DNA from: Brevinematales bacterium
Lineage (GTDB): Bacteria > Spirochaetota > Brevinematia > DTOW01
Direction: 5' to 3'
DNA: 64,000 nt
Assembly: GCA_026415355.1 (NCBI GenBank)
Contig: JAOAHF010000008.1
Span: forward strand, 1-64,000
The notes beneath the pieces are model-generated. The model worked only from the letters and a program-made list of their open reading frames with translations. It was not told where the DNA came from and ran no database searches. The position numbers and the translations under genes were made by a program. Numbering within the stretch: position 1 is the first letter of the stretch; each line of letters begins with the position of its first letter. Positions 150 to 42,043 of the stretch are shown one piece after another.

Positions 150-1586
150 ATGAAAGTAATAGTGGTAGGTAGTGGTTTAGGGGGTTTATCTGCAGCCATC
201 AATTTAAAAAGCTTAGGATTGGATGTTGAAATTGTTGAAAAGAACTCACATGTTGGAGGTAGGATGAATTTCATAGAAAAGGATGACTTTTACTTTGATA
301 CAGGACCTTCTTTACTCATAATGCTCAATCCTCTTAAAAAACTTTTCGAAAGCAATAACAGAAAACTTGAAGATTACATAAAAGTAAAACTCATAGACCC
401 AACTTATAGAGTTTACTTTGAAAAAGACAAAAGTATAATCGAACCATCCGTAGTTATACCTGAATATCTAAAACAAATACCTAACGAAATAGGAAATCTA
501 CTGAAATTTTTTGGTGATATATCAAACATGTATCAATTTGTAATAGATAACCTTGTGTACAAAAACTTTAATACTATATTTGATATGATAACTTTAAAAG
601 GTGCTATAAACGCTTTAAAGTTTGGTTTTCTATCAAATCTATACTCAAAAACTTCTAGTTATTTCAAAGACTATAGGATGAAATGGCTTAATACTTTTCA
701 ATCAATGTATCTAGGTGTTTCTCCATACGAAGCTCCCTTCGCTTATGCTGTTGTCAACTATATGGAGAGTGTAGAAGGTGTATACTATGCACTTGGAGGT
801 ATGTACAAGGTAGCAGAAGCCGTTAAAAGATTAGCAGAAGAACTTGGAGTAAAAATCACCACTAATACTGAAGTATTACAAATAAGATCTCTCAAAGATA
901 AAAAAGTCTTGGTAACAAATAAAGGTGAAATTGAAACAGATATAGTCGTTATAAACGCAGATCTACCATACGCAAAGGAGAAACTACTAGGTAAAAAAAT
1001 ACCAAAATACAAATACTCTTGTTCAACACTTATGTACTATATAGGTTATGATGGAGAAACAGAACTCCTACATCACAACGTATTTTTTGGTACAAAGTTT
1101 AAAGAAGTACTCGACGATATATTCAAAACAGGTAAATTCAATAGTGATATATCTTTCTATGTTCACGTATCATCAAAAACAGATAAGCACCATGCTCCTC
1201 CAGGAAGTGAAAATATATATATCCTTGTTCCTGTCTCTAACCTTAATGTTTCGAAAGAAGATTTCACTAAAATTTCTGATGAAGTACTCAATCTAGTATA
1301 TGATAGACTAGAAAAAAGAACAAGCTTCCGAAGAAACAAAGTTAGATTCGTTTTGAAAAGAACACCTGTTGATTGGAAAAATCTATATAACCTACAATAC
1401 GGTAGTACCTTCGGTCTATCTCACGTTTTATTCCAATCGGCATACTTTAGACCTAAAAACTACGAAAAACACGAAAGGGGTATATACTACGTTGGCTCTT
1501 CAACCATACCTGGAAGCGGAATACCAATGGTAATAATATCAGGAGAATTAGTAAAAGAAAGAATCAAAAATGACTATAAGTTATAA
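150..1586 (+). CDS. crtI: Phytoene desaturase-family (CrtI/CrtN-like) carotenoid oxidoreductase
   Basis: This 478-residue flavoprotein should introduce double bonds into phytoene, or a C30 equivalent, to make a coloured polyene. The N-terminus has the FAD-binding GxGxxG motif (Gly7, Gly9, Gly12), then a beta strand and the VGGRM sequence typical of CrtI enzymes. The C-terminus has the family's closing FAD motif around GSGIPMVIISG. The length is normal for the family. A ribosome binding site GAGAGG precedes the ATG. It is the first gene of an operon with a cruF-like and a crtB-like gene, and its last 17 bp overlap the next gene. The exact step count, and C30 against C40 substrate, cannot be told from sequence; related CrtO- or CrtP-like oxygenases share the fold. 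Confidence 0.88.
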   Translation: MKVIVVGSGLGGLSAAINLKSLGLDVEIVEKNSHVGGRMNFIEKDDFYFDTGPSLLIMLNPLKKLFESNNRKLEDYIKVKLIDPTYRVYFEKDKSIIEPSVVIPEYLKQIPNEIGNLLKFFGDISNMYQFVIDNLVYKNFNTIFDMITLKGAINALKFGFLSNLYSKTSSYFKDYRMKWLNTFQSMYLGVSPYEAPFAYAVVNYMESVEGVYYALGGMYKVAEAVKRLAEELGVKITTNTEVLQIRSLKDKKVLVTNKGEIETDIVVINADLPYAKEKLLGKKIPKYKYSCSTLMYYIGYDGETELLHHNVFFGTKFKEVLDDIFKTGKFNSDISFYVHVSSKTDKHHAPPGSENIYILVPVSNLNVSKEDFTKISDEVLNLVYDRLEKRTSFRRNKVRFVLKRTPVDWKNLYNLQYGSTFGLSHVLFQSAYFRPKNYEKHERGIYYVGSSTIPGSGIPMVIISGELVKERIKNDYKL

Positions 1587-2364
1587 GAAAATAACAAAAC
1601 ACATATTTTTTGTAGGACTAGCAGTTGGTATTTTTAGCATATTAGGTTATGTTCTAAAAACTTACATAGGATTACCTACTGATATAAAAACTAATACAAT
1701 AGAAGAGTTGATACCACATATATTTATATTACTTACGCTTTTTACATCTTTTTTAGTTGGAATTATTTCTCTCGGTGTTAGCAAAACAACAATACTTTTA
1801 ATAATAACTTTTATTGTATCCTTTATTCTCGAATTATCCTCAACCTACAATGGTTTCCCTTATGGACTTTACAAGTATTCTGATAAAATGGGATTTAAAT
1901 TATTAGGTGAAGTTCCTTTTCTGATACCTCTGTCTTGGTTTTCTATAATACTACCTTCTCTCGTTATATCCTACAAATTAGGTTTTAGAGGATATCCTGT
2001 AGTCTTATTCAGCTCAATACTTGTTCTAATATGGGATTTGTCTCTAGAATATTTTGCAAGCTATATCAAAAAATTCTGGATATGGGAAGAAGGCTTCTTC
2101 TACACAATGCCTATAGAAAATTGGTTTGGCTGGTTTCTTACTGCTTTGGTAATATATTCTATCTACTGGATTATGTACAAAGAAGATGGTGAAAATATAC
2201 AATACTGCGAATACGCTTTTTTCAACTATCTCCTAATAACACTATTTTCATCCTTATTTTCACTATTCTACGGTGGTATTATACCCGGATTTCTTACTAT
2301 AGGAGGTGTTGCTGTATTAATACTCTACTCAATATCAAGAGGTATTAAATTATGGAGCAGTTAG
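1570..2364 (+). CDS. cruF: CruF-like carotenoid hydratase family membrane protein
   Basis: The protein has 264 residues and about seven to eight hydrophobic segments. It resembles the carotenoid biosynthesis protein family (DUF422) that includes CruF and bisanhydrobacterioruberin hydratase, which add water across the end of a psi-end carotenoid. The clearest family signature is the central stretch with ELSST, GFPYG, Y and then GVPFLIPLSW-type residues (here GEVPFLIPLSW), near residues 85-120. It overlaps crtI by 17 bp and the crtB-like gene by 13 bp, which suggests translational coupling and one pathway. The hydratase role is inferred from family and context; an isomerase or structural role cannot be excluded. 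Confidence 0.75.
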   Translation: MTISYKKITKHIFFVGLAVGIFSILGYVLKTYIGLPTDIKTNTIEELIPHIFILLTLFTSFLVGIISLGVSKTTILLIITFIVSFILELSSTYNGFPYGLYKYSDKMGFKLLGEVPFLIPLSWFSIILPSLVISYKLGFRGYPVVLFSSILVLIWDLSLEYFASYIKKFWIWEEGFFYTMPIENWFGWFLTALVIYSIYWIMYKEDGENIQYCEYAFFNYLLITLFSSLFSLFYGGIIPGFLTIGGVAVLILYSISRGIKLWSS

Positions 2365-3242
2365 ACAAAGCTTTTGAGTACTGTAAATTTATAATGCAAA
2401 AACACGCTAAAACTTTCTACATGGCAGCTCAGAAATTACCATACGAAGAACAAAAACACTTTTGGAGCATATACGCATATTGTAGAACAGTAGATGATAT
2501 AGCAGATGAATACTTCCTAAAAGATACCAACCAAGGAATAAAAGAACTTCAAAATATAAAAAATTCTCTTATATTATCTTTCAACCAAAAATATTCAGGT
2601 ACCAACCTTATATTCTTAGCATTAAATAAAACATTTGAAAATTATAAGTTTAACATAGATCCCTTTTTAGAACTTATAGAAGGAGCTATTTGGGATTTAA
2701 CATCAAAAGAGATAAAAACATTGGAAGATCTCTTAGAATACTCAAAACTTGTCGCAGGATCAGTAGGAGCAATGCTATTACCAATAATTTCAAACCAACC
2801 TGATAAAATCTACAATCACGCATACAATTACGGTACTTTCATGCAGATAGTTAACATAATAAGAGATGTTGGAGAAGATTTGAAGAATAGAAATAGAATA
2901 TACCTACCCAAAGATATGATTACACAGTACAACATAAGTATTGACAACTTGAGAAATGGAATAGTAACCACAAATTACAAGAAACTAATCGAAGATCTTA
3001 TGGAAATAGCAGAAAAAATGTTTTTTGAAAACGTATCTTCTATTAATTACCTCAGAAAAGACGTTAGAAGGTCAATACACCTTGCCGGATTATGGTATCT
3101 CGAAATACTTAACTCAGTAAGATTTTCAAATTACGACAATCTAAGTAAAAGAAATTATGTACCCAAATACATGAAATACATATCACTACTAGGAGGATAT
3201 AAACTAAGAAAAAACATTCTAAAGTCTATATTCTTAGTATAA
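2352..3242 (+). CDS. crtB: Phytoene/squalene synthase family protein (CrtB-like)
   Basis: This 296-residue all-helical prenyl synthase should join two prenyl diphosphates head to head to form phytoene (from GGPP) or dehydrosqualene (from FPP). The first Mg-binding motif is CRTVDDIAD, with Asp48, Asp49 and Asp52. The second is IIRDVGEDL near residue 170, followed by the typical RIYLP sequence. The length is normal. It starts inside the end of the cruF-like gene and closes the operon. No lycopene cyclase or GGPP synthase is present in the window, so the carbon number of the product is open. Confidence 0.87.
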   Translation: MEQLDKAFEYCKFIMQKHAKTFYMAAQKLPYEEQKHFWSIYAYCRTVDDIADEYFLKDTNQGIKELQNIKNSLILSFNQKYSGTNLIFLALNKTFENYKFNIDPFLELIEGAIWDLTSKEIKTLEDLLEYSKLVAGSVGAMLLPIISNQPDKIYNHAYNYGTFMQIVNIIRDVGEDLKNRNRIYLPKDMITQYNISIDNLRNGIVTTNYKKLIEDLMEIAEKMFFENVSSINYLRKDVRRSIHLAGLWYLEILNSVRFSNYDNLSKRNYVPKYMKYISLLGGYKLRKNILKSIFLV

Positions 3243-25722: not shown

Positions 25723-28700
25723 ATGAAAAATATTCTATCAATTTTTCTTTCACTTTTGGCGTCATTACTTATTTTCTCACTAACAGTAGCACAAGATATT
25801 AATACCCATATTCAAGAAACAAGTAAACAAGAAAATACAACAAGCGAAGAAGAAAAAGAATTAACAAACGATTACAAAGTAGATTATGAAAGCCTACTCT
25901 CAATAAGAGTAAAGGAAATTGAAGAAGAAACATTGCCTAACTATTTTGACTATGTTGTTGATGAAAAAATGCCACAGTTTGACCTCCAGAATGGTGATAA
26001 GGAATACATCCTAGAAAAATCAATTTCAAATATAGAAAGATTAGCAAACTACAATGAAATAGTCAAAGAAATACTAATCGAAGATGAGAAACAGAAAAGA
26101 GAATATTATAGGCTTGAAAGACCTATAGTTGCAGTTGATATCGAACAACTCGACAGTAGAGTTTTTGCTAGAGGTAATGTATTGTTTGGTTTATCTTATG
26201 GTAGCATAAGAAGAACACCTGACATCACAACTCCTGTTTCCTCTTTCATAAAGGAAAACTTTAATGTCAATCAAGATATGAGAGTTTTATCAACTAGCAA
26301 GATAGGTAACAAAGTCAGTGTAGATATTGAATTTGATCAGAAAAGTGCGATAAATAGATTTAACGTATCTTACAAAGAACCTGAAAAATCACCACAAACT
26401 CAACCACAATTAATTCAACAACAAGCAACTAATCAGACAAGAGAAGAATCATTTGTTAGAGAACTGACTTTTGGTGAGATAAGCTTTTCAAAATCTAGCA
26501 GTAAATATGTTAATTATACTGCCATTTCAAGATCTGCACAAGGTATAAAGTTTGTAGGTAAAAGAGACAAGTTTTCTATCGAAGCAATCGGAACACTTTC
26601 AACAACAGTACCTACAAAAAGATCATTTTCTGGAACTAAAAGAGTATCCGAAAGAAGTATAAGAGATATTGATTTTATAAAAAGAAAATTCTTCAAATTA
26701 CCTGACAATAACGTTGACGTAGGATCTATAGTACTTTTAGTGTCTGTGTCTTCTTTAGAACCATTTGACTTGTATATTGACGGAATAGCTTTCAGGAAAA
26801 TGATACCCGGAAATGAGTATATATACGACAGATTTAATAATGAAATAGAACTTAAGTACTCCTTAGATATAAACAAGTCTCTTGCTATATTTTACACACA
26901 CAGTTCAGGACAACCTATAACATTTTCAACTAACATATACAAAGGAACTGGCAGTGACAATAAAGAGTATCTATACCTTTTTAAACCAAGTATAGGATAT
27001 TCACCTTACGAAGCAAAAAATTTGTACTCAATAGGTACAATCGACATTAATCTATCTCAAGGTTTTGACATATATGTATATTTGACTTCTGATCCTAACA
27101 TATCCACCAGTCTTCAGTTCAAACCTTCTGACTATTATATTGATGTCACCAGAGGAATCATAAGATTCAATAATCCTCAACCTTTCTTATCAAATGCTAA
27201 CTATAATATATACAATTTGAATAGAGACCCTCTAGATGTTGAATCAACATACACATTTAGGATCAGATACTATGAAAACATAACAACTTACCAATTAGAT
27301 TTTGATATTGTAGAGGGTAGTGAGGAAGTTAGAATAAATGGAGTACTCATACCAAAGGACAAATACACCATATTTTACCCAATCGGTAGAATAATATTTA
27401 GAGATACAACACTCATAAACGAAGGAGATAGAGTAGAAATATCCTATGAATATAGACCTTTTTTTGGCGGTAGCCAGAAAATATCTTTAGGCACTATAGC
27501 GGAATATCAATTATCTGACTTTATGAACAGTAAGCTATCAACTGCTTTTTGGATTTCTCAAAGTGGAGGAACAGCTCCTAGACTTACATCTAGTACCCCT
27601 GAAACAGGAATAATAACTTCACTAGTAAATAGAATTGACTTTAAAAACCTCTTTAATATACAAAACAAAAATCTAAACACATATCTTGATTTTGAGTGTG
27701 CTGTATCAATAGTAAATCCCAATTCTTTTGGTGCAGTCATAATAGATGACTTCGAAGTTAATAAAAAATCATTCTTGCTGACAAAAGATGAAGATTCTTG
27801 GATTCTATCATCACCATCAATAAACGATGGATGCTTTTATACTAACAGGGGAAAACTCTACTACAAAGATTACAGACAGTACTACGCAAATGAATCTTTT
27901 ACTCTCATGTCTTATACCTGGAATTTACCTTCATCTCAGATATTACCATACTCACAGAAACCTGGACCTTACATAGCAAGTGGCGGTAGATTATCTCCTG
28001 GAGACTTTCCTAATGTATCTCAGTTTTCTTTGGTCTTTGACTATGACTTTTCTGACGGTAACTGGGTTGGTGCTATGTTACTCTTAAGTTCAGCAGGTGT
28101 TGATCTATCAGATATAAGCGAAATAATAGTTTCATACAAACTTCAGATGGACAACGATTTTGATAACAATTATGATGATAACAATACAAACAAAATTACA
28201 TTGCTCTTGCAGTTGGGTACCTTTTCGGAAGATATAGATGGTGACAATTTCTTAGACACTGAAATATCAGCATCTCAGAATGGTTTTGATTTCAATGATC
28301 CAACAAATGCTAATACAGTAATAACTAAGATAGGTAGTGGCAGAAAAGGCACAGGTAATGGTAGAATTGATACTGAAGACATTAACAAAAACGGACGTCT
28401 TGACAAAGAAGAAAATTTTGTCTCATTCTCTAACACTGTCGAAGGTAGTGGTTGGAAAAAGTTGTCTATAAATATAAACTCTTTATCGCCATCTCAGATT
28501 GAAATACTCAAGAAAACCTATCTATCCAGAATAATACTGAAAAAGAATGCTGGTTTAAAGGGCAGAGTATTAGTAGATGAAATTCAATTTAAATTTAGAA
28601 CAACAAGGAATTATAAAATCGATGGAATACTAGTCAGAGATCCTTACCAGATAAAATCTACTACTATCTCCGTATATGATTCCCCATTGTATCTGAAAAA

Positions 28701-31353
28701 CAGATTTTTCAACATAGAAGCAAAAACACCAGAAGAAAAAGAACGATTACAAGAGTACTCATATCTCCACGGGACAAGTGCAATATCAGTCTCCGAAGCA
28801 AAATCAATAGATGAAACATCACTAAGAATCACTTATTTTCTTTCAAACGTCTCTATAGATACTAATTCTGTCCCTTACGAAGGAGGAAGAGAAGGTGTTG
28901 TTAATATAAGTTTCAATAGCTCCCAAAACTTATCACCTTATTCAAAGCTAGTATGGTATCTTTTTATACCAACTGTAAATGAAGCAGGACAACAGATTAA
29001 ACAATCAGGAGATACACTCGAGGATGAGGTGATAGTAGTAAGACTCATATCAAAAGAAAGAGATTACTTTGAATTCAACATACCTATTTCAAGGCTTAGA
29101 AAAGATTATTGGAATAGGCTAGAACTCAGAATAAGGGAAGATTATAAGCTCATCCTTAATAACAATATCTATGATACAGTCTACCCGAATGTTGTAGGTT
29201 TTCCTTTATTTAGAGATATAAACGCCTTGGAACTAGGAGTTAGAGTTAGTGAAAATTCTGTCGAACCTATTAACATAGGAGAAATCTGGTTTAATGAGTT
29301 TTTCTTGACAGATGTAAATTGGTCTATAAGTAGCGCTATTAATTCAACCCTTAACCTTCAGTATACAGGTGACGTAAATATCTTTGGGATTAATATCATT
29401 TCAATGCCATATATAGTAATGTCTATTGAAAACATATTCCCAAACTTCAAAGGTACTGGGGGAAAGGAAAACGCAAATATCCTTACATATACTCACTATC
29501 ACTCTTCCGAACTATTCAAGATACTAGGACTAAATCACTCTTTCTCAATACAAAGAGAAAACTCAGTAAAAGATCCAACACTACCAGAATATTTACTCTA
29601 CAATAATACATCAAGAGCATTTAGATATTCCTTGAATGCTAAACACAATCTATCTATATTACCCACTTTATCTTACTCCTTCTCAGATAGACAAAATACT
29701 ATCTCACAAAATGGTCTTATAAACTTAGGGACTAATCTATTCATACAAAATACAATCTCAGAAGAAGTCGGACTGGATTCATCCATAAGTATATCTTACA
29801 ACTTATTATTGTTAAATAACACATTTTCACTTCGTAATACACTTGATCTTTCATCAAGTTATAATGCTAAAAACGTTAACACTAAAACCAATGATGTTTT
29901 TCTATTCTCATCACCTTCATTTCAAAATTGGGTTTATACTCTAGGACTCTCAAGTGGAATCAACTACCTATCTTTTGGAATAAACAACAACTTCAAACAC
30001 TCTGAGACTTTTTACACATCTGAAAACAAACCTATAAACTTCGTTGAAGAATTATCAAAGGTTTCTATACCCCAAAGAAATCAGTATTCTTTGAATTTAC
30101 TTTTCGAAGGGTTTAGAGAAAGAGGTATTAGAAGAGAAGTCTATGAAAGTGATACACTATCCATGTCTTATGCTAATCTTATGAACTTTGCTAATGTTTA
30201 TATAACCCCATCTTATGAGTTTAAAGACTTTAATTTTAATTACACTTCAAACATGATAAGAAGAGATATTCAAATGAACGGTAGAATTACGTATAAAGTT
30301 GATATAAATGTCAATAGATTGATATTTAGCATACTTTCTCTCAATTCATCACATAACACAACATTTTCTGCAAATAGTATCGACTACAATCTCAAATGGT
30401 ACGATTTCTACACAAATAACCTATACAGAGGAGTAATTGCAATACCTTTCTACGAATACATAGGTTTGTTTGGATATGAAAATCTGAGCAATGCTTTAGT
30501 CTTTGTATCCAACCTGTATAATTTAAGAAGCATAGTTAATCAATTTTCCTCAGCCGGTATTTCTCTATCACTAATACCACAAGAAGACATACTCTTGAGT
30601 CTGATACCAAGAAATTATTCTTTAGATTATTCAACTACTACAGTGAGAGAGCTTAGTAGTTTTAGACAACTAAATAGATCTTCTTTTTCTGCTGTTTCCT
30701 ACATCCCTATCCACAAAATAAACTGGTTTATATTCAAGCGATCAACTAACATCTCTGTAAATGATGTCCAAACCACTTTGTCAGTCATAAGAGAAGAAGA
30801 TCTAAACGCTTCGATACTCAAAACTACTGCAAGTTTCTCTTCTTCTTTTTCTGGGATTCTAGAGCAACAAAATAGTTTTTCAATATCCTATACAATATCC
30901 TATCTATACCAGGATATCATAACAAACTTGCCAAATTTCTACAAAGATTTCGGTATAGGACTAGTACCACCTCAAACACTCTTTAATTCAATATCTCACA
31001 ACGTAAGATTACTACTAACATTTTCATATACTTCTAACGAAGAATTTGATATAATATTCACAAAACTGAAGGCAAAATCAGTTATAGAAAATAAAGAAGA
31101 ACTAAACTTTTCTCTTGAAAATCCTTGGTACAACAATAATAAATTCACAAGTTTTAGAAGGAAAGTTTTTGAGCTGAATTTCTTTCACGAAACAAGTATT
31201 AATCTATCAGATTTTGTTAGATTTAGTGGATACTTGAAATTCCTATTATCTCAATTATCAGAAGTTTTCGTTCAGAATGATTTGGTAAACGAAAAGTTTC
31301 TTGATTATATACCAGGTATAGAAGTAGGTATAAACATAAGAGTAGTATTTTAG
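25723..31353 (+). CDS. Giant outer-membrane protein, SprA/Sov-like
   Basis: This 1876-residue protein has a signal peptide (residues 1-24, ending TVAQ), long beta-rich stretches and a C-terminal Phe, as in outer-membrane barrels. Several local features recall SprA/Sov, the barrel of the type IX secretion system. They are SINRFNVSY-like text near residue 205, repeated plug-like domains with strand pattern DRVEISYEYRPFFGG near residue 580, and IIDDFE near residue 672 with following WILSSP. They also include calcium-loop-like DIDGDNFLD and DINKNGRLD near 845 and 888. SprA is usually about 2300-2500 residues, so this one is shorter. The rest of a type IX system is not in the window. The family call is from reading only. 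Confidence 0.55.
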   Translation: MKNILSIFLSLLASLLIFSLTVAQDINTHIQETSKQENTTSEEEKELTNDYKVDYESLLSIRVKEIEEETLPNYFDYVVDEKMPQFDLQNGDKEYILEKSISNIERLANYNEIVKEILIEDEKQKREYYRLERPIVAVDIEQLDSRVFARGNVLFGLSYGSIRRTPDITTPVSSFIKENFNVNQDMRVLSTSKIGNKVSVDIEFDQKSAINRFNVSYKEPEKSPQTQPQLIQQQATNQTREESFVRELTFGEISFSKSSSKYVNYTAISRSAQGIKFVGKRDKFSIEAIGTLSTTVPTKRSFSGTKRVSERSIRDIDFIKRKFFKLPDNNVDVGSIVLLVSVSSLEPFDLYIDGIAFRKMIPGNEYIYDRFNNEIELKYSLDINKSLAIFYTHSSGQPITFSTNIYKGTGSDNKEYLYLFKPSIGYSPYEAKNLYSIGTIDINLSQGFDIYVYLTSDPNISTSLQFKPSDYYIDVTRGIIRFNNPQPFLSNANYNIYNLNRDPLDVESTYTFRIRYYENITTYQLDFDIVEGSEEVRINGVLIPKDKYTIFYPIGRIIFRDTTLINEGDRVEISYEYRPFFGGSQKISLGTIAEYQLSDFMNSKLSTAFWISQSGGTAPRLTSSTPETGIITSLVNRIDFKNLFNIQNKNLNTYLDFECAVSIVNPNSFGAVIIDDFEVNKKSFLLTKDEDSWILSSPSINDGCFYTNRGKLYYKDYRQYYANESFTLMSYTWNLPSSQILPYSQKPGPYIASGGRLSPGDFPNVSQFSLVFDYDFSDGNWVGAMLLLSSAGVDLSDISEIIVSYKLQMDNDFDNNYDDNNTNKITLLLQLGTFSEDIDGDNFLDTEISASQNGFDFNDPTNANTVITKIGSGRKGTGNGRIDTEDINKNGRLDKEENFVSFSNTVEGSGWKKLSININSLSPSQIEILKKTYLSRIILKKNAGLKGRVLVDEIQFKFRTTRNYKIDGILVRDPYQIKSTTISVYDSPLYLKNRFFNIEAKTPEEKERLQEYSYLHGTSAISVSEAKSIDETSLRITYFLSNVSIDTNSVPYEGGREGVVNISFNSSQNLSPYSKLVWYLFIPTVNEAGQQIKQSGDTLEDEVIVVRLISKERDYFEFNIPISRLRKDYWNRLELRIREDYKLILNNNIYDTVYPNVVGFPLFRDINALELGVRVSENSVEPINIGEIWFNEFFLTDVNWSISSAINSTLNLQYTGDVNIFGINIISMPYIVMSIENIFPNFKGTGGKENANILTYTHYHSSELFKILGLNHSFSIQRENSVKDPTLPEYLLYNNTSRAFRYSLNAKHNLSILPTLSYSFSDRQNTISQNGLINLGTNLFIQNTISEEVGLDSSISISYNLLLLNNTFSLRNTLDLSSSYNAKNVNTKTNDVFLFSSPSFQNWVYTLGLSSGINYLSFGINNNFKHSETFYTSENKPINFVEELSKVSIPQRNQYSLNLLFEGFRERGIRREVYESDTLSMSYANLMNFANVYITPSYEFKDFNFNYTSNMIRRDIQMNGRITYKVDINVNRLIFSILSLNSSHNTTFSANSIDYNLKWYDFYTNNLYRGVIAIPFYEYIGLFGYENLSNALVFVSNLYNLRSIVNQFSSAGISLSLIPQEDILLSLIPRNYSLDYSTTTVRELSSFRQLNRSSFSAVSYIPIHKINWFIFKRSTNISVNDVQTTLSVIREEDLNASILKTTASFSSSFSGILEQQNSFSISYTISYLYQDIITNLPNFYKDFGIGLVPPQTLFNSISHNVRLLLTFSYTSNEEFDIIFTKLKAKSVIENKEELNFSLENPWYNNNKFTSFRRKVFELNFFHETSINLSDFVRFSGYLKFLLSQLSEVFVQNDLVNEKFLDYIPGIEVGINIRVVF

Positions 31354-39184: not shown

Positions 39185-42043
39185 ATGAACTTCGATAAAC
39201 TTTTTTCATACTTAGGTAAAGAAAACACTATAACTCCAGATAGGTTACTCTCGTCCATAGAAGAGGCAAAACAACAAGCTTACGAAGAATCTAGCGAAAT
39301 GACTCAGCAAAAAGAGAATCAGTATTTTGATTCATATGAATTGAATTTAAGCTATGGAGAAACATCAGGTAGCAAATCTTCTGAAAGAACATCTTACATA
39401 GAATCATCTATTCCAGAAGGACCTAATGAATCTCAAAGAGATGAAATAGATAAATTTCTATCTGTATTTGATGACCCATTGCCAACATATGAAACTATAA
39501 AAGATTTAACAATACCGGATGTAATCAAACAAGAAATACAATCTAAGTTCGTTAAAGAAGAAGCAACACAAATCTCACAAGAAGTAGAAAAGGAGACTTA
39601 TATACCCGAACAATCTTCGGAACCTCTTGATCTGCTTAAGGATTTTAAAATAGGAGAAGTTGAAGAAGAAAAACTATCATCCGAAGAGCTTGAAAGTATT
39701 TTGGGAATAGAAAGAAAAGAAAAAGTAACATCCTACGAAGAATCTTTAGATAAAGAAGAAGAAAGTATAAAAACATCTGAACTTACCTGGGAACAATATG
39801 AGAAAGAAAGTAAAGATACATTCAAACCTGAAGAAAGAATAGAATTCAGTTTCGAAGAACCTGAAAAACCTTTCGAACTAGGTCAGCAAGAAGAAAGTCT
39901 TTTGTTTTCTAGCGAGTTTGGAGAAAGTAAAGATTTAGGACTTGAAAGATTTACTCCAGAAGACTCCTTTATCGAAGCAGAAAAGATTATAAAAGGATTT
40001 GAAGAGGCCGAAGAAGTTTCATCAGAAACTTCACCTCCAGATGAGTTTTTTGAAGAACTTCAAAGAGAAACTGCAGAACCTTTCGAGAGAATAACAGAAG
40101 TTGCTCCTGAACAAAAAATATATCCTAAGGAATTAGTAGAAGAATCAAAAGAATATATACCCAAATCTTACCCCGTAGAGAAACCTACTAAACCATCTGA
40201 ACTAGATCCATCGAAAGTAGTATCAATACTTAAGCAGTATCCAAGCGATATAAGGAGAGCAGTTAAAGATCTTATAACAAATGGTATAATTACAGAAGCA
40301 CAAATAGAAGAGTTATTTAACTTCATTTCCAGTCAACCACAACCCAAAGATCTGAAAAATTACATAATAAGTATAGCCCCCTTCTACAGATTTGAAGAAC
40401 AACCTACAAGAAGAGTTATAATAGCAGCAAAGAAAAGTAAAGCTGAAGAAGCACTTGAAAAAGTCCTGAAAAGATCTGTAATAGCAGTTGGTATAATAGG
40501 TCTCATGGCAATAATTGGTTTTGTAGTATTTACAACAGTCTCAAGAATGATGTACTCCGAAAACCTTTACAATAGGGGACTTAATCTTATAGACGCTGGC
40601 TACTACGATGAAGCAGAGAAATTATTTGCCAGAGCAGAAGAAGTAGGTGGCAAAAAAGTAGAATGGTATAATACATATGCTCAAAGATATTTATATAATA
40701 ATGTACCTGAAAGAGCCGTCAAAAAATTAGAGGACGCTCTAAAGATATGGCCTTATGACTATAAAACTAGCCTAAACTATGTCGAAGCCTTAACCAAACT
40801 TCCTATACCAAACTTCGAAACAGCACTTAAATATTCTGAAGAGTTTCGTAGAAAAGAAGATAACAGTTTCCGTGGCATTGATCTCAATGCACAAGTGTAC
40901 GTAAAAATGGGTGACTACTACAAAATGAAGAACTATTACAAAGATGCAGAAATACTATACATGAAGTACTTAAAATCAAAAGATAATGTCCATATACCTT
41001 CACTATTTAGATTGATATCAATATACATAAGACTTGATCAGAAAGAAAAAGTAGATGAAATACATGATTATATAAAAAAACTCGACGAAAAAGCTGTCTC
41101 GGAACCAGTTGGAGTAGAGATGGCTAGATATTACATTGATAAAAATGATCTGAGTAGAGCTAAGAAGATTCTGTTTGAGTTATCAACTATAAATCCTAAA
41201 GATCCAGAATATTACTATGAATTTGCCAGGTACTTATTTAAGAATGAAAACTATAGAGAATCAATCAAAAATCTCAATACATCGCTTAAATTAAATCCAA
41301 AACACGCAAAATCATATATTCTTTTAGCCAATATTGATTATTTAGTTGGCAATAAGAATTCTGCTATTGAAAACTACAAAAAAGCAATATCCATAGATCC
41401 ATCACAAAAAGAAGCATATTTCAAACTCGGTGACATTTTTTATGAAAATAAGGAATATACCACAGCCTTAGGATATTATCTAGAAGGTTTAAAAATAGGC
41501 GAACCTGAAGATGTAAACTATTTATCTTCAATAAACTACAACATAGCTAAGATATATTATAACAATGGTATGCTAAATGAATCTCTCAAATACCTCTCAT
41601 ACTCTTACATACGTGATCCACAAAATCCTCTTCTGTCACAGTTTATGGGTAACATATATCTAGAACTCGGTAAACCCGATATGGCATTAGTCCAGTATAA
41701 CAAATCAATAGAAGGTTATCAAAAGATACTAGAAGAAATACCAGCTCTTAATCCCAAGATCATAAAACATAGAGAACTAACTTCATTCTTAATAAGAACA
41801 TACAATAATCAAGGAGTTGCTTACATACTCATAGATAGTAAAAATAATGTAAAAAATGCTCTGCTGAGTTGGTGGGAAGCCAAAAACTATGCTGAAAAGA
41901 TAAATTCTATTTACCCAAACGCAGAATATAACTTAAAACTCATACTTCACCCAACTATGATAAAATACAGAAACTTTTCTGTTGATAAGGAAATACCTGA
42001 TTCTATACCCAAGTATATATACTCTTATATCTCAAAAGATTAA
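39185..42043 (+). CDS. Large membrane TPR protein with acidic N-terminal region
   Basis: The 952-residue protein has three parts. Residues 1-345 are very rich in Glu and Ser, with many EE-containing short motifs, and are probably disordered in the cytoplasm. One membrane helix lies at about 429-452. The remaining 500 residues form about ten tetratricopeptide repeats outside the membrane, for example GLNLIDAGYYDEAEKLFARAE and NYKKAISIDPSQKEAYFKLG. I do not recognise a named family. A TATAAT box lies 15 nt before the ATG and no ribosome site is seen. Confidence 0.78.
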   Translation: MNFDKLFSYLGKENTITPDRLLSSIEEAKQQAYEESSEMTQQKENQYFDSYELNLSYGETSGSKSSERTSYIESSIPEGPNESQRDEIDKFLSVFDDPLPTYETIKDLTIPDVIKQEIQSKFVKEEATQISQEVEKETYIPEQSSEPLDLLKDFKIGEVEEEKLSSEELESILGIERKEKVTSYEESLDKEEESIKTSELTWEQYEKESKDTFKPEERIEFSFEEPEKPFELGQQEESLLFSSEFGESKDLGLERFTPEDSFIEAEKIIKGFEEAEEVSSETSPPDEFFEELQRETAEPFERITEVAPEQKIYPKELVEESKEYIPKSYPVEKPTKPSELDPSKVVSILKQYPSDIRRAVKDLITNGIITEAQIEELFNFISSQPQPKDLKNYIISIAPFYRFEEQPTRRVIIAAKKSKAEEALEKVLKRSVIAVGIIGLMAIIGFVVFTTVSRMMYSENLYNRGLNLIDAGYYDEAEKLFARAEEVGGKKVEWYNTYAQRYLYNNVPERAVKKLEDALKIWPYDYKTSLNYVEALTKLPIPNFETALKYSEEFRRKEDNSFRGIDLNAQVYVKMGDYYKMKNYYKDAEILYMKYLKSKDNVHIPSLFRLISIYIRLDQKEKVDEIHDYIKKLDEKAVSEPVGVEMARYYIDKNDLSRAKKILFELSTINPKDPEYYYEFARYLFKNENYRESIKNLNTSLKLNPKHAKSYILLANIDYLVGNKNSAIENYKKAISIDPSQKEAYFKLGDIFYENKEYTTALGYYLEGLKIGEPEDVNYLSSINYNIAKIYYNNGMLNESLKYLSYSYIRDPQNPLLSQFMGNIYLELGKPDMALVQYNKSIEGYQKILEEIPALNPKIIKHRELTSFLIRTYNNQGVAYILIDSKNNVKNALLSWWEAKNYAEKINSIYPNAEYNLKLILHPTMIKYRNFSVDKEIPDSIPKYIYSYISKD

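Follow-up and report, generated by a model that had tools for sequence, protein, structure and literature searches.

A giant SprA-like protein in a Brevinematales spirochaete, the probable translocon of a type-9-like export route

The SprA-like Gene and Its Surroundings

The window, by which we mean the whole stretch of 64,000 nucleotides that was analysed, is part of a spirochaete chromosome. It encodes a flagellin as well as a TPR protein (39185–42043, + strand), part of which matches FlcA, a collar protein of the periplasmic flagella (9e-67, below the cut-off), and both agree with the FlaB spirochaete host named in the first-pass annotation. The GldF-like permease and the Bacteroidetes-style secreted protein that had also been reported from the window were not seen among the window proteins scanned, which were a subset of the ORFs. 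A carotenoid gene cluster coding for a phytoene desaturase family protein, a CruF-like hydratase, and a phytoene synthase is located at positions 150–3242 (+).

The SprA-like gene is an intact ORF with an ATG start and no internal stop. It is single-copy, being the sole match in its own genome (1.76 Mb, 80 contigs). The features of the gene and of the encoded protein are collected in Table 1. No T9SS operon was seen around the SprA gene in the neighbourhoods of 41 loci; the neighbours mostly code for unrelated proteins (M23 peptidase, DHH, STAS-domain, and ion-channel proteins), with flagellar rod genes in some lineages.

Table 1. Features of the SprA-like gene (window coordinates).
Feature	Position	Strand	Evidence
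SprA-like outer-membrane translocon gene (putative), 1876 aa	25723..31353	+	ORF; family profile vs SprA 6h3i 1.6e-49; Foldseek top four matches SprA for both halves
Putative signal peptide, residues 1–24	25723..25794	+	Hydrophobic N-terminus ending in VAQ, by eye
Conserved SprA core, about residues 135–1250	26125..29472	+	Profile–SprA alignment; AlphaFold2 model, pLDDT 81; Foldseek 9.3e-37 to 8gl6
IIDDFE motif, residues 673–678	27739..27756	+	Aligned with YIDDFE of Bacteroidetes SprA
WILSSP motif, residues 693–698	27799..27816	+	Aligned with WTLSSI of Bacteroidetes SprA; W693 invariant among closer relatives
Acidic loop EDIDGDNFLD, residues 836–845	28228..28257	+	E836 and D837 invariant in 36 spirochaete sequences
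Acidic loop EDINKNGRLD, residues 885–894	28375..28404	+	D886 invariant, E885 nearly invariant (36 spirochaete sequences)
C-terminal barrel part, residues 1183–1876, 26 strands in model	29269..31350	+	pLDDT 86; Foldseek 1.4e-13 to SprA 8gl8, next unrelated match 1.7e-3
C-terminal Phe codon, F1876	31348..31350	+	Nearly invariant in the family (36 spirochaete sequences)

The motifs that had been reported for this protein (a signal peptide, IIDDFE, WILSSP, two acidic loops, and a C-terminal Phe, the last being typical of BAM substrates) were all present, the signal peptide being judged by eye from the N-terminus MKNILSIFLSLLASLLIFSLTVAQ. Like W693, the residue G670 is invariant among the closer relatives. 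In a bona fide Bacteroidetes SprA (L200, 2709 bits to TIGR04189), the same motif columns read YIDDFESSEIPLDLKSNSWTLSSIP; the calcium-loop-like motif is typical of the family but is weakly kept in L200. As these residues are invariant or nearly invariant in the family and occupy the same columns in the Bacteroidetes protein, we conclude from the alignments that the motifs are not due to chance.

Homology to SprA

The first-pass annotation had read the protein as SprA/Sov and proposed a profile-HMM search, the outcome of which depended on the query. When the single window sequence was compared with Pfam, NCBIfam, and the PDB, no SprA model was matched, which by itself speaks against the SprA/Sov reading. 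The protein gave no match to TIGR04189 (equivalog cut-off of 200 bits) or to Pfam SprA_N, and nothing was found in its own genome with the SprA_N model, the controls of which were likewise silent. Two other spirochaete members of the family matched TIGR04189 at 6e-28 and 3e-37 (97–128 bits), below the cut-off. Meanwhile, a 36-row profile of the spirochaete family matched SprA of F. johnsoniae (6h3i) at 1.6e-49. The alignment was collinear, with the profile positions 105–659 and 743–1139 corresponding to SprA 116–885 and 988–1529, respectively. In the reverse direction, the spirochaete profile detected the Bacteroidetes SprA that scores 2709 bits to TIGR04189 (4e-20), and it also detected a protein of Cloacimonadota (L145) that lies above the TIGR04189 cut-off with 534 bits. 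The examined members from Poribacteria and Elusimicrobia score below this cut-off.

The fold was modelled with AlphaFold2 as two overlapping halves, and the models were compared with the PDB by Foldseek. For the first half (residues 108–1260, mean pLDDT 81), the four best matches were all SprA (9.3e-37 to 9.8e-25; best 8gl6), and the same was seen for the second half (residues 930–1876, mean pLDDT 86; 1.4e-13 to 3.1e-11; best 8gl8). The next matches after SprA followed at 5e-7 (probability 0.51) and 1.7e-3. As most of the second half has no sequence-level evidence of its own, its modelled fold is independent support for the relation to SprA. The models superpose loosely on SprA (TM of about 0.4–0.5 by query length), which we attribute to their being half barrels. 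The C-terminal 690 residues were modelled as 26 consecutive barrel-length strands, in agreement with the earlier description of the protein as beta-rich; with the halves modelled separately, a closed barrel of ~36 strands and its lateral opening are outside the view of these models.

We also considered that the protein might be an unrelated giant barrel or autotransporter resembling SprA in local motifs only. The silence of the single-sequence searches would fit such a protein, but SprA is matched both by the family profile and in the comparison of folds, and other barrels reach at best 1.7e-3 for the C-terminal half; the probability of this explanation is negligible, and it was rejected. Homology across most of the length, together with the predicted SprA fold, indicates that the giant protein is genuinely related to SprA, as the annotation had supposed. 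It resembles SprA/Sov of the Bacteroidetes T9SS (TIGR04189; 6h3i, 8gl6, 8gl8) in its collinearity over SprA 116–1529, in its motif columns, and in the best matches of both model halves. It differs in its length (about 1880 aa in spirochaetes, about 2400 aa in Bacteroidetes), in scoring below the TIGR04189 cut-off, and in giving no match to Pfam SprA_N.

PorV Carriers and Sorting-Domain Cargo

Relatives of the protein were found in 86 of 296 Spirochaetota genomes by the single-sequence search and in 129 with an 18-row profile. The same genomes were searched for PorV and for type IX sorting domains, as the annotation had proposed, and PorV-like carriers as well as sorting-domain proteins were present. 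The PorV/PorQ-family model (NF033709) matched in 191 of the 296 genomes, above the cut-off in 50, and the type A sorting domain (CTD, TIGR04183) in 113, above the cut-off in 99. In these partly above-cut-off matches, the spirochaetes resemble the type A branch of the T9SS. The genome of the window contains five sorting-domain matches, of which the two listed are above the cut-off, and a PorV-family match (6.8e-12 to NF033709) that is below it.

In raw counts that ignore shared ancestry, SprA and PorV (E<1e-10) occur together in 110 genomes, SprA alone in 19, PorV alone in 22, and neither in 145. The corresponding raw counts for SprA and CTD, again with shared ancestry ignored, are 93, 36, 20, and 147 genomes, or 36, 1, 6, and 11 at the family level. 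Among the 27 genomes with at least three CTD matches, all but one, which is 76% complete, contain a SprA homologue.

The cargo and carrier genes are often arranged in tandem. Among the matches listed, all 16 CTD–PorV pairs within 400 bp, spread over 12 genomes and 9 families, are on the same strand with the CTD gene 5' of PorV. A CTD protein is the upstream same-strand neighbour of 17 of the 39 sampled PorV genes and the downstream neighbour of two, in a sample that leans to many-copy genomes. In the genus of the window, CTD proteins of at least 2146 aa and of 2377 aa are followed by a PorV-family protein of 544 aa (L081). A comparable pair lies at a contig edge in the genome of the window itself (L107): the ORF there, of which the end is on the contig, bears a CTD and is followed after 16 bp by a PorV-family gene. 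The tail of this ORF matches an FlgD Ig-like model (1.2e-8) better than TIGR04183 (1.5e-4, below the cut-off). The sorting domain and the Ig-like domain of FlgD are related to each other, and with the FlgD model the better one here, some of the CTD calls may be something else. Likewise, the weak PorV matches may include FadL-like barrels that have no part in export.

These data bear on the possibility that the SprA-like barrel has another job, such as inserting or anchoring some other surface component, and that its co-occurrence with CTD and PorV is incidental. SprA is present without a CTD match in 36 of the 129 genomes, and one family (f46) has SprA and no CTD match at all. However, absent matches can stem from the narrow TIGR04183 model, and the strong co-occurrence and the cargo–PorV tandems speak against an incidental association, so that we regard this explanation as unlikely.

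Several further observations concern the carriers and the cargo. The PorV-family proteins of the window's genus (L081:13607-15238 and L083:2078-3715) carry an extra C-terminal region, and residues 356–412 of the former, within this region, weakly match FlgD models. A subtilase of the window's genome (L080:7061-9160) ends in a tail that weakly matches the type A sorting domain (3.5e-4, below the cut-off). The PorV protein of genome G000 gives a weak PorP_fam match (4e-5). Three genomes (G012, G025, and G036) have 61–82 PorV and 66–78 sorting-domain first-look candidates each, partly scored, the highest numbers among the genomes listed. Finally, in several families a protein of 1000–1175 aa, TPR-like by eye and with a signal-like N-terminus, is divergently transcribed beside a PorV-family gene (L195, L196, L198, and L199). 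This neighbour is a candidate SprE-like partner; an NCBIfam search of the one examined (L199) matched no family.

Search for the Motor and the Sortase

The GldK–N part of the proposed partner search had a different outcome. Searches of 25 spirochaete genomes detected neither GldL, GldN, nor a full-length PorU, whereas a Bacteroidetes control genome gave clear matches of 196 bits (1.3e-57), 195 bits (2e-57), and 1227 bits, respectively. GldM was not found in the same set either, in a search run without a positive control. The matches to the PorU model cover the CTD region only in nearly all spirochaetes, the exception being one isolated C25-like region in genome G047. In this, the spirochaetes differ from the T9SS of Bacteroidetes. 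As the motor and the sortase were searched for and not detected, we do not class the spirochaete system, as seen in these genomes, as a canonical T9SS.

As SprA itself is far diverged, the short motor proteins could escape the Bacteroidetes models. A complete canonical T9SS might accordingly be present, with its motor (GldLM), ring (GldKN), and sortase diverged beyond recognition by these models. The SprA homologue drops from 2709 bits in Bacteroidetes to about 97–128 bits, and a similar loss would hide GldL or GldN. PorU, however, is long, yet its model finds the CTD region alone in nearly all spirochaetes. We therefore consider a hidden canonical system possible but somewhat doubtful.

Proposed Export Route

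In the T9SS of F. johnsoniae, the substrates enter SprA, bind the loops of PorV at the lateral opening, and exit as a carrier–cargo complex; energy is needed for the release step (PMC10994853). A single PorV serves the type A substrates, while those of type B have dedicated carriers, by which they are also anchored (PMC12635249, PMC9143113).

We think it likely that the giant protein serves as the translocon in the outer membrane for a type-9-like export route that uses cargo-dedicated PorV carriers and an energy source that is either not Gld or very divergent. By analogy with the F. johnsoniae structures (PMC10994853), Sec would carry the cargo to the periplasm, and the cargo CTD would enter the SprA-like pore and bind to the loops of a barrel of the PorV family, which would be docked at the lateral opening. 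The cargo would then depart as a PorV–cargo complex. Since homologues of GldL, GldM, and GldN were not detected, the release might be driven by a very divergent or different energy transducer.

As many cargo genes adjoin their own PorV, the carrier is probably cargo-specific, and it may stay bound as a surface anchor, as is the case for type B cargo with SprF/PorP. Many spirochaete PorV genes directly follow a single CTD cargo gene, whereas in Bacteroidetes one general PorV serves the type A cargo (PMC12635249). The pairing of a cargo with its own carrier barrel is shared with the SprB–SprF/PorP-type pairs of type B (PMC12635249, PMC9143113), but the spirochaete pairs consist of PorV-family carriers and type-A-like CTDs.

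Distribution and Origin of the Family

In a scan of named genomes, relatives were also found in Spirochaetia, Aerophobetes, Elusimicrobia, Poribacteria, Cloacimonadota, Zixibacteria, Fermentibacterota/Aegiribacteria, WOR-3/Stahlbacteria, Firestonebacteria, Caldiserica, and Marinimicrobia. The SprA-like proteins of Cloacimonadota, Poribacteria, Elusimicrobia, WOR-3, Zixibacteria, and others belong to the same family, the Cloacimonadota protein L145 passing TIGR04189. The T9SS was found only in Bacteroidetes in a survey of 2016 (PMC4793230), and its genes were stated to be absent outside the FCB phyla in 2024 (PMC11285876). No report of SprA in spirochaetes was found in the open-licence literature, and an earlier mention elsewhere is possible.

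A 50-row protein tree, built by a quick method with a simple model, unrooted for the family and including one Bacteroidetes SprA of certain origin, placed Spirochaetota on one side of a branch (support 100) and the FCB-type phyla, including Bacteroidetes SprA, in a separate clan (100). Elusimicrobia (95) and Poribacteria (100) each formed a group of their own. As Spirochaetota form one clan and the known FCB SprA proteins another, a recent transfer from Bacteroidetes is unlikely. Recent transfer or contamination would be suggested by the T9SS being best known from Bacteroidetes, and by a spirochaete-like copy (L114) in a Bacteroidetes-named bin. It is countered by the separation in the tree, by the ordinary spirochaete genes on the window contig, by the presence of the family in 129 of 296 genomes, and by the position of L114 on a contig apart from the bin's own SprA. 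We judged such an origin highly improbable and rejected it. The annotation had suggested a divergent or ancestral SprA-like translocon in a spirochaete; a SprA relative is indeed present, but it belongs to a phylum-wide family, divided along phylum lines, and is not peculiar to this organism.

Tentatively, and with somewhat less than even confidence, we propose that Spirochaetota and many other phyla share the SprA–PorV–CTD module as an outer-membrane export route of ancient origin, in which the PorV carriers are dedicated to their cargo and neither the GldKLMN motor nor the PorU sortase takes part, and that the gliding motor of Bacteroidetes was added later. As the family of the translocon also occurs in Spirochaetota, Poribacteria, Elusimicrobia, and other phyla, the core of type 9 export is much broader than described, and the order in which translocon, carriers, and motor were assembled becomes testable. 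Poribacteria have many sorting-domain proteins, for which no known secretion genes were found (PMC3909097); their SprA-like proteins offer a possible route.

Two bins deserve a separate remark. L114 belongs to the Bacteroidetes bacterium ADurb.Bin145 (G296), which has a canonical SprA on another contig as well as canonical GldL, GldN, and PorU, and the L114 contig is probably mis-binned. A genome labelled Marinifilum sp. (G297) has a SprA-like protein (L133) and many sorting domains, while GldL and full PorU were not found in it; since L133 falls by Poribacteria in the tree, the bin may be mixed or wrongly labelled.
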